Shown here one piece after another: positions 57,177 through 58,634 of a DNA stretch of 64,000 bases. A program made the translations under genes and the position numbers. The stretch comes from Sporosarcina ureae. GTDB taxonomy: Bacteria > Bacillota > Bacilli > Bacillales_A > Planococcaceae. How positions within the stretch are numbered: the stretch's first letter is position 1; the number at the start of each line of letters is the position of its first letter. The notes below the pieces were generated by a model, which worked only from the letters and a program-made list of their open reading frames with translations, searched no databases and was not told the origin of the DNA. The stretch covers positions 1,197,001 to 1,261,000 of the forward strand of contig NZ_CP015348.1 of NCBI RefSeq assembly GCF_002109325.1. The letters are read 5' to 3'.

Positions 57177-57206
57177 AAAAAACCCGTAGCGCTGAATCGC
57201 TACGGG
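57177..57206 (-). terminator. Terminator of the small-gene operon copies 3-2-1
   Basis: CCCGTAGCG pairs with CGCTACGGG; on the minus strand TTTTTT follows. Closely similar to the hairpin at 58013-58040. Confidence 0.88.
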
Positions 57207-57220
57207 ATGTTGTTTTGAAT

Positions 57221-57343
57221 TTATTTTGTGTATGAAAGAACTGCGTAATTACTGAAGTTCTTCATTGCGTCAGTTGCTTCTGCTTTCTCAGCGTATTCAA
57301 AAATCCGTACGTTTTCTTGACCAAATAATGTAATTACCCACAT
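57221..57343 (-). CDS. 40-residue small protein (array copy 1)
   Basis: Encodes 40 residues starting MWVITLFGQENVRIFEYAEK and ending AVLSYTK. One of five paralogues in a row. AAAAGGAGACTG precedes the ATG. Last gene of the 3-2-1 operon, with a terminator 15 bp after. The core MWVITLF...VRIFEYAEK.EA..AMKNFS.YAVLSYT is shared by all copies, and the pattern (Trp-2, a beta strand, a helix, a final strand) suggests a small folded alpha-beta protein. Function unknown. Confidence 0.8.
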   Translation of the reverse strand: MWVITLFGQENVRIFEYAEKAEATDAMKNFSNYAVLSYTK

Positions 57344-57397
57344 GTTTTCCAGTCTCCTTTTAATCTGTATGGTTATTCTTGCCATAAAATCTGAAGT

Positions 57398-57520
57398 TTA
57401 GTACGTGTATGAAAGAACTGCGTATTTGCTGAAGTTTTTCATGGCATCAGTTGCTTCTGCCTTCTCAGCATATTCAAAAATCCGTACGTTTTCTTGACCA
57501 AATAATGTAATTACCCACAT
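57398..57520 (-). CDS. 40-residue small protein (array copy 2)
   Basis: Differs from copy 1 at only two positions (N/K and K/Y near the end). Behind AAAAGGAGACTG, 54 bp before copy 1. Sequence identity to copies 1 and 4 at DNA level in the 5' half suggests a recent tandem duplication. Confidence 0.8.
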   Translation of the reverse strand: MWVITLFGQENVRIFEYAEKAEATDAMKNFSKYAVLSYTY

Positions 57521-57574
57521 GTTTGTCAGTCTCCTTTTAATTCGTATTGGTATTCTATTGTTAAAAATTGATAC

Positions 57575-57697
57575 TTAGTATGTGTATGTTAGTACTGCGT
57601 ATTTGCTAAAGTTTTTCATTGCACTTTTCGCTTCTGCTTTTTCAGCGTATTCAAAGATCCTTACGTTTGCTTCATCAAACAATGTGATAACCCACAT
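57575..57697 (-). CDS. 40-residue small protein (array copy 3)
   Basis: First gene of the 3-2-1 operon, behind AAAAGGGAGACTA. Starts MWVITLFDEANVRIFEYAEK and ends AVLTYTY. Its DNA (GTTATCACATTGTT) is closer to copy 5 than to copies 1, 2 and 4, as expected if a two-gene operon was duplicated. A promoter with a Rex/Fnr-like palindrome lies upstream. Confidence 0.8.
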   Translation of the reverse strand: MWVITLFDEANVRIFEYAEKAEAKSAMKNFSKYAVLTYTY

Positions 57698-57773
57698 ATT
57701 GTGTAGTCTCCCTTTTTGTTTGGCTGCTTTTTTCCGAAGAGGAATTGGCTAACCAATTTCTTTTGTTACTCTT

Positions 57774-57865
57774 ATCATACTCTGTTCTACAACAAAAGAA
57801 AGCGGTATGTGAAGCATTTCACAATTCATTCAAAATCAAAACGCTTACATATGTCATACTTGTGA
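57774..57865 (-). promoter_or_regulatory. Promoter of copies 3-2-1 with Rex/Fnr-like operator
   Basis: On the minus strand: TATGAT -10 (57774-57779), no good -35, palindrome TGTGAAATGCTTCACA (57808-57823), then CATATGTAAGCG (57842-57853) and a TCACA half-site (57861-57865). All four elements recur at the same relative spacing upstream of copy 5. TGTGA-N6-TCACA is the Fnr/CRP pattern and (T)TGTGAANNNNTTCACA the Rex pattern. The 57698-58055 gap contains nothing else but this and a terminator. Confidence 0.65.
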
Positions 57866-58012
57866 CTGCAAACGTTTTCTTATTACTATTATTCATTTTA
57901 TGCATATTTTTTATAATTAATTTTATTTTTTCATCAACATGAAATTACATCCTTCGACAGTGGATACGAACTGACACCCTTAATCAGATATGCTTTAATT
58001 CAATTTATATGT

Positions 58013-58040
58013 AAAAAACCGCAGCGAGTTACGCTACGGT
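58013..58040 (-). terminator. Terminator of the small-gene operon copies 5-4
   Basis: ACCGCAGCG pairs with CGCTACGGT; on the minus strand TTTTTT follows. It is like the terminator at 57177, again pointing to an operon duplication. Confidence 0.85.
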
Positions 58041-58055
58041 CAAAGTAATAACTAC

Positions 58056-58178
58056 TTATTTTGTGTAAGAAAGAACAGCATATTTACTGAAATTCTTCAT
58101 TGCATTCATGGCTTCTATCTTCTCAGTATATTCAAATATTCGTACGTTCGCTTGATCAAATAATGTAATTACCCACAT
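58056..58178 (-). CDS. 40-residue small protein (array copy 4)
   Basis: Starts MWVITLFDQANVRIFEYTEK, ends AVLSYTK. Behind AAAGGGAGACTG. Second gene of the 5-4 operon. Has TEKIEAMNAM where others have AEKAEATDAM, the most divergent middle of the five. Confidence 0.8.
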   Translation of the reverse strand: MWVITLFDQANVRIFEYTEKIEAMNAMKNFSKYAVLSYTK

Positions 58179-58249
58179 GTTTGTCAGTCTCCCTTTAATT
58201 TCGCTTTTTATCATTCATTAATATTAACTATGCGTATGTTCAGTGATTT

Positions 58250-58372
58250 TTATTTTGTATAGGATAAAACAGCGTACTCATTGAGCTTCTCCATGGCAGT
58301 CGTAGCTTCTGCTTTCTCTGCGTATTCAAAGATCCGTACTTTTTCTGTTTCGAACAATGTGATAACCCACAT
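58250..58372 (-). CDS. 40-residue small protein (array copy 5)
   Basis: First gene of the 5-4 operon, behind AAAAAGGAGACTG. Starts MWVITLFETEKVRIFEYAEK, ends AVLSYTK, with MEKLNEY where others have MKNFSKY. It is 71 bp before copy 4. Confidence 0.8.
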   Translation of the reverse strand: MWVITLFETEKVRIFEYAEKAEATTAMEKLNEYAVLSYTK

Positions 58373-58447
58373 ATTGTTCAGTCTCCTTTTTGGTTGTATT
58401 TAGATTCACAAGGCGAGAATCTATGACCAACTTTTCTTATTAACCTT

Positions 58448-58539
58448 AGTATACTATCTTTAGTATGCGTTTTGGTCACATTGTGAAGGTTTTCACAAAT
58501 CATACAAAGTTGAACCGCTTACATATGACTACTTTGTGA
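58448..58539 (-). promoter_or_regulatory. Promoter of copies 5-4 with Rex/Fnr-like operator
   Basis: On the minus strand: TATACT -10 (58448-58453), perfect palindrome TTGTGAAAACCTTCACAA (58481-58498), CATATGTAAGCG (58516-58527) and a TCACA half-site (58535-58539). The palindrome exactly fits the Rex pattern TTGTGAA-N4-TTCACAA. Its centre is 39 bp from the -10 centre, as in the other promoter. Confidence 0.7.
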
Positions 58540-58634
58540 ATATTAGTCATTACAGGTTTAGCTGCTCACTACTATTTCTATTGAACACAAATAGAATTTT
58601 AAGACATATACTATGATGAAAACGTAAAGAAAGG

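Follow-up and report, generated by a model that had tools for sequence, protein, structure and literature searches.

What might a bacterium gain from five genes for nearly the same protein of only 40 residues, set side by side behind two look-alike promoters? We asked this of a locus in the soil bacterium Sporosarcina ureae, using a 64,000-nucleotide stretch of contig NZ_CP015348.1 (positions 1,197,001 to 1,261,000, hereafter the window, in whose numbering all positions below are given unless another sequence is named). On its minus strand, between positions 57221 and 58372, the window carries five open reading frames (ORFs) of 123 bp, all starting with ATG and all encoding near-identical 40-residue proteins. 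Directly 5′ of every copy lies AAAGGAGACT or AAAGGGAGACT, the Shine-Dalgarno region. These ORFs and sites match an earlier, sequence-only reading of the locus, which had described five minus-strand 123-bp genes for nearly the same protein, each with its own AAAGG(A/G)AGACT site. The ORF list of the region also holds longer, upstream-started versions of copies 1 and 4.

The five ORFs are evidently real protein-coding genes, because the ratio of nonsynonymous to synonymous differences (pN/pS) is low in the true frame and high in shifted frames. Among the copies it ranges from 0.11 to 0.23 in all 10 pairs. Pooled over 54 Sporosarcina sequences (loci L006-L019 and L057), which are kin and hence not 54 independent tests, it is 0.141, against 2.35 and 2.26 in the two shifted frames. 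The proposal that these residues are under selection thus holds both between copies and across relatives, where coding constraint was looked for and is present. One could still suppose that the ORFs are untranslated and represent repeats or a leader RNA, given their small size and the absence of any Pfam or NCBIfam match to the window copies at E ≤ 5. We find this scarcely credible in view of the strong synonymous bias, the intact starts and stops, the ribosome-binding sites and the relatives across genera. Nor does any Rfam family match at gathering level, the best being a microRNA model (E 0.64; score 22 bits, gathering threshold 98).

The genes apparently form two transcription units, operon A with copies 5 and 4 and operon B with copies 3, 2 and 1, because there are two terminators and a promoter module lies upstream of each of copies 5 and 3 (see the table). 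Paired terminators had been noted, and both are found, at 57206-57183 after copy 1 and at 58041-58017 after copy 4; counted over both strands, the region has five terminator-like sites, the minus strand accounting for two, compared with a mean of 1.0 in shuffled sequence. The matched redox-type promoters of the earlier reading were also recovered, as modules with the same elements before copies 5 and 3. In aligned first-gene promoters of the family (71 of 77 retained, reduced to 31 non-redundant), the module begins with a catabolite-responsive element (cre)-like TG(T/A)AAGCGTTTTGA, continues with TTTGAA and TTGTGAA-N4-TTCACA(A/T) and reaches the -10 element usually after 27 bp. In both window promoters the palindrome is centred 36 bp 5′ of the first -10 base, and unit 2 of the direct repeat begins 45 bp upstream of the -10. 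Compared with TTGTGAAN4TTCACAA, the palindrome agrees at 14 of 14 specified positions in operon A and at 13 of 14 in operon B. The same 14 bases as the operon A cre-like site, with 2 mismatches, occur in loci L009 and L011. By eye, no good -35 hexamer stands at the expected place in module promoters, and a scan of the region for consensus promoters found three, none of them at the modules, against a shuffled mean of 7.8.

Table. Features of the five-copy array, in window coordinates
Feature	Positions	Strand	Basis
Intrinsic terminator, operon B, after copy 1; 9-bp stem, T tail	57183..57206	-	
Copy 1, 40-residue family gene, operon B gene 3	57221..57343	-	ORF, substitution analysis
Copy 2, 40-residue family gene, operon B gene 2	57398..57520	-	ORF, substitution analysis, AlphaFold2 model
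Copy 3, 40-residue family gene, operon B gene 1	57575..57697	-	ORF, substitution analysis
Ribosome-binding region AAAGGGAGACT of copy 3; counterparts before the other four copies	57705..57715	-	
-10 element TATGAT, operon B	57774..57779	-	
Rex-type palindrome TTGTGAAATGCTTCACAT, operon B; left half doubles as direct-repeat unit 2	57807..57824	-	
Direct-repeat unit 1 TTTGAAT, operon B	57828..57834	-	
Operon B cre-like site TGTAAGCGTTTTGA; differs from TGWAANCGNTNWCA by 1 mismatch	57836..57849	-	
Intrinsic terminator, operon A, after copy 4; 10-bp stem, T tail	58017..58041	-	
Copy 4, 40-residue family gene, operon A gene 2	58056..58178	-	ORF, substitution analysis
Copy 5, 40-residue family gene, operon A gene 1	58250..58372	-	ORF, substitution analysis
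-10 element TATACT, operon A	58448..58453	-	
Rex-type palindrome TTGTGAAAACCTTCACAA, operon A; left half doubles as direct-repeat unit 2	58481..58498	-	
Direct-repeat unit 1 of operon A, TTTGTAT; differs from TTTGAA by one mismatch	58502..58508	-	
Operon A cre-like site TGTAAGCGGTTCAA; differs from TGWAANCGNTNWCA by 2 mismatches	58510..58523	-	

By the evidence of pattern scans over 101 genomes, this module is a dedicated promoter, which at 0-1 mismatch stands before family genes and no others. The composite pattern gave 36 matches at that stringency, every one upstream of a family gene and on its strand, at a distance of 86-140 bp in 35 cases and 1409 bp in one (G055). At two mismatches, 3 of 13 matches precede a family gene, and a reversed control pattern, allowed up to two mismatches, matched twice in the 101 genomes. 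The host genome holds three exact TTGTGAAN4TTCACA sites, two of which are the window promoters. In the case of G055 (C1:397746-399155, locus L126), about 1.4 kb separates promoter from gene, compared with 140 bp in G035, where the protein is the same; the extra DNA may be an insertion.

To compare the elements, we started from 131 distinct coding sequences and left out distant relatives, fragments and rows in which the upstream DNA was short or held another family gene close by, which gave 81 first-gene promoters. Of these, 73 contain the direct repeat TTTGAA-N4-TTGTGAA with at most one mismatch and 78 with at most two. The palindrome's right half, TTCACA, is present with at most one mismatch in 72, and the cre-like site, at up to four mismatches to TGTAAGCGTTTTGA, in 57. 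All five promoters from genus g45 keep the direct repeat and have lost both the palindrome and the cre-like site. The direct repeat is, from these counts, the most constant part of the module. A conserved structured leader RNA was also considered and rejected, the mean folding z being -0.7 over 76 mRNA leaders; 29 of them fall below -1, and folding is strong in some only. Some leaders of genus g52 (L079, L080 and L081) fold, unlike most others, into a long hairpin with z of about -4.

Which regulators could read such a module? The ResD half-site consensus is TTTGTGAAT, arranged in tandem upstream of the promoter, and the CcpA cre consensus is TGWAANCGNTNWCA. The host has one Rex gene, whose product carries both PF06971 and PF02629. 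As the Rex consensus, PMC4162614 gives TTGTGAAnnnnTTCACAA and PMC2883068 gives TTGTGAAW4TTCACAA. The arrangement that fits the promoters best would be an activator on the direct repeat, overlapped in most genera by a Rex operator, because the direct repeat is the element that varies least and is kept alone in genus g45. ResD is our candidate for this activator, chosen because of its TTTGTGAAT consensus and because the host has like repeats, at one mismatch each, 186 bp before the start of ctaA and about 280 bp upstream of a cytochrome-oxidase subunit II gene.

The palindrome might instead be read by a Crp/Fnr-type activator and not by Rex and ResD, as TTGTGAAN4TTCACAA also holds TGTGA-N6-TCACA and one host protein of the Crp/Fnr type exceeds its Pfam cut-off. 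Several features make this distinctly unlikely. The inner AA/TT is nearly as conserved as the rest and the outer T/A less so, a pattern that fits Rex better when judged, as here, on promoters selected by the box itself. The box centre, 36 bp from the first -10 base, is farther away than a class II site would be, and the right half is absent from the five g45 promoters. Canonical Fnr in particular is less likely because the sole Crp/Fnr-type protein has two cysteines only and adjoins an apparent metal P-type ATPase gene, in both of which it differs from Bacillus Fnr.

We propose that the two operons supply a small ββαβ protein in quantity when respiration is limited, switched by a ResD-type activator together with Rex and, probably, CcpA, and we judge this account to have an even chance of being correct; its regulators, the direction of control, the importance of dose and the function are what we infer from sequence. 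Limitation of oxygen or of another acceptor would raise NADH and activate the respiration two-component system, whose ResD/SrrA-type response regulator would then activate from the direct repeat. Rex would occupy the overlapping palindrome while NAD+ is plentiful and be released as NADH rises, and CcpA at the cre-like site would couple output to carbon supply. Several gene copies, up to five per genome, would increase the dose of a small binding protein. The 40-residue product, presumably soluble, most likely acts by stoichiometric binding to a larger partner, because it is too small for a typical enzyme.

A number of observations weigh against this proposal. Among the papers listed by our literature searches, none states the TTTGTGAAT consensus. 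A scan of the host genome for the direct repeat found 25 sites against 18 for a control; a simple ORF caller puts eight of the 25 between genes. These eight include both window promoters but not the site near the oxidase gene, which the caller places inside a small ORF. Since the scan is near its control and the sites at ctaA and the oxidase gene were singled out afterwards, they serve as a lead only. Likewise, the Rex-type pattern at one mismatch matches the host 25 times against 13 for a control, with many sites counted on both strands. At one mismatch, the loose form of the cre pattern can also be laid over a portion of the operon A palindrome. The position of a box immediately 5′ of the -35 region does not prove that it represses; another dimeric regulator could use it. 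The promoters compared come from the best-scoring members and not from every member. Among the 47 of genus g1, the direct repeat has more than one mismatch in 5, the right half is missing from 3 and the cre-like site from 11 at the limits used. The Bacillaceae relatives examined do not carry this promoter, the best palindrome match having 3-6 mismatches in all 30 loci, and the protein's role therefore cannot depend on the module everywhere. Finally, the AlphaFold2 model behind the ββαβ assignment has a predicted template modelling score (pTM) of only 0.65 over its 40 residues.

Elsewhere in the host genome, a Rex-type box with one mismatch precedes atpI of the ATP synthase (L149, 2474166), and another precedes a pyridine-nucleotide-disulphide oxidoreductase gene (L136, 863272). 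Several GTGAA-N4-TTCAC palindromes, seen by eye, stand in a row before a malic enzyme gene (L145 around 1440-1600, 2011040-2011081).

How did the array arise? Single-sequence and profile searches of the host genome gave five family matches in all, with no member beyond the array, and the same five-copy, two-promoter arrangement is common to nine genomes, the host among them. It had been suggested that a two-gene operon was duplicated and that one gene was then duplicated again, with copy 5 pairing with copy 3 and copy 4 with copies 2 and 1. The two apparent operons and the second pairing stand, since copy 4 is closest in DNA identity to copies 1 (0.837) and 2 (0.821). The first pairing does not: copy 5 has its highest DNA identity with copy 1 (0.772), against 0.748 with copy 3, and in a FastTree tree of the 120-bp coding sequences, with groupings taken without support values, copy 5 and its equivalents in the nine five-copy genomes form one clade near the stand-alone copies of other Sporosarcina. 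In the same tree the copy-4 equivalents fall mostly together, those of copies 3, 2 and 1 mostly make up one mixed group in which gene conversion is likely, and copies 1 and 2 of the host form a clade with those of its nearest relative. Duplication of a promoter together with one gene, followed by tandem growth, would therefore fit the array better than duplication of a two-gene operon.

Whether the number of copies matters is a separate issue. If one copy were enough and dose irrelevant, the array could be a neutral tandem expansion, and the variation in copy number between matching Sporosarcina genomes, which have 1 to 5, a number of genomes of the genus without any match, and a stop codon inside one array copy of G001 (L008 near 694-790), which indicates that copies can be lost, all point that way. 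Set against this are the low pN/pS in every pair of copies, the maintenance of the two-promoter five-copy array in nine genomes, and the situation in genus g42, where most genomes have three matches, lying apart from one another in the cases read, and the module is present in each of the 21 promoters read. We therefore consider neutral expansion unlikely, and selection for dose, as first suggested from the sequence, plausible.

The proteins belong to a widespread, unnamed small-protein family. With a single sequence as query, 36 of the 101 genomes proved to have members, and two profile searches of the host's family and order found them in 135 and 137 of 261 genomes (host counted throughout) in 13 of 19 genera. 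In a sample of the class, 22 of 398 genomes matched, 17 from the host's family, three from another family at E of about 1e-8 to 1e-9 and two so weakly (E 0.005 and 0.04) that they may be chance. That second, Bacillaceae-type family had matches in 22 of 80 genomes, with up to nine per genome. Its branch of the protein family is longer, at 45-52 residues, and takes in Peribacillus, Neobacillus, Metabacillus and Priestia among the matches listed. Residues M1, W2, T5, E16, E22 and A23 are invariant across both branches in an alignment of 34 sequences, one start residue being taken as M. Protein searches at E ≤ 1 gave 23, 194 and 701 matches, of which the best 120 were listed in each of the last two. 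The closest named records are from Sporosarcina, with one from S. ureae at the top. Among the matches listed that bear a name, most are called 'hypothetical protein' and a few have doubtful automatic names, and the expectation that gene finders would miss such genes fails for the several relatives that already have NCBI records of this kind. Pfam searches with ten relatives gave no match over a curated cut-off, none of the strings MWVITVF, MWVITLF and MWVITVY is printed in a paper of the library searched, and among the titles listed by literature searches none bears on the family. With one Bacillaceae relative as query, phage records gave no match and plasmid records gave nine, eight from Priestia and one from Cytobacillus. 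The relatives on Priestia plasmids belong to the longer branch (for example NZ_CP073299.1:15393-15527).

We saw no neighbour gene common to all of the 20 stretches read; two kinds of gene, one with a CBS domain and one DoxX-like, turn up more than once. The former encodes a 234-residue protein adjoining family genes in two genera (L112:8386-9090 and L123:9293-9997). The latter encodes a DoxX/DoxD-like membrane protein and adjoins a family gene at four loci of Sporosarcina (L122, L123, L124 and L125), identified with Pfam in L122 and by a similar protein start in the other three. In the host itself, a DoxX gene (L274) is preceded, at a distance of 48 bp, by a direct repeat like that of the module.

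What the protein binds may be hinted at by its shape. The AlphaFold2 model of copy 2 is a ββαβ fold with a mean predicted local distance difference test score (pLDDT) of 92.4. Sequence searches of the PDB found nothing below E 0.2; proteins of the RNA recognition motif type appeared at E 0.7-1.6, which we read as a common strand-helix pattern. Fold searches of the PDB and of viral proteins gave no match at E ≤ 0.001, and the Bacillus phage protein A0A516KN02 combined a TMq of 0.90 with an E of 1.4. The best among the weak structural matches is T7 Gp2, a phage inhibitor of Escherichia coli RNA polymerase, to which no sequence similarity was shown. A further weak match, to 4njc, concerns the RNA-polymerase epsilon subunit RpoY/YkzG (PF07288), which shares the short ββαβ layout and differs in having about 70 residues against 40; moreover, the host has its own RpoY. 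Kinship with RpoY by sequence was rejected, as PF07288 matches none of the five copies at E ≤ 5 and hhalign gives a probability of 0.4%. The modelled likeness to Gp2 and epsilon is weak and a lead only. That the protein binds RNA polymerase as these two do and retunes transcription under limited respiration is, in our view, very unlikely, and a more specific version, in which it is a host-made counterpart of Gp2 that modulates the polymerase according to the state of respiration and works by dose, is a long shot. Of ten proteins tried, the Bacillaceae relative P0205 matches PHROG 4939, a group of phage proteins of unknown function, at E 1.4e-4 over 39 residues, and three others do so at E 0.014-0.16; neither of the two window copies tested gave a match to it.

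Returning to the proposal of a respiration-controlled small protein, the promoter is more informative than the protein, since a single pattern unites candidate sites of three regulators that act globally on respiration and carbon use. The module offers a testable handle on small-protein function in Bacillales, as well as a motif with which genomes can be searched for missed members. Compared with known Rex regulon operators, the window promoters share the near-perfect palindrome and the presence of a rex gene in the genome. They differ in that the palindrome overlaps a direct repeat at a fixed distance from a cre-like site, and in that the low-mismatch composite stands before this one family only. 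The promoter logic of Bacillus subtilis cydABCD, where Rex has a role beside ResD as a positive and CcpA as a negative regulator, involves the same three kinds of site that we propose here. The CcpA and ResD roles are named in a title among the references of PMC2883068. What sets the two systems apart is the product, as cydABCD encodes an oxidase and the window promoters control a small protein.
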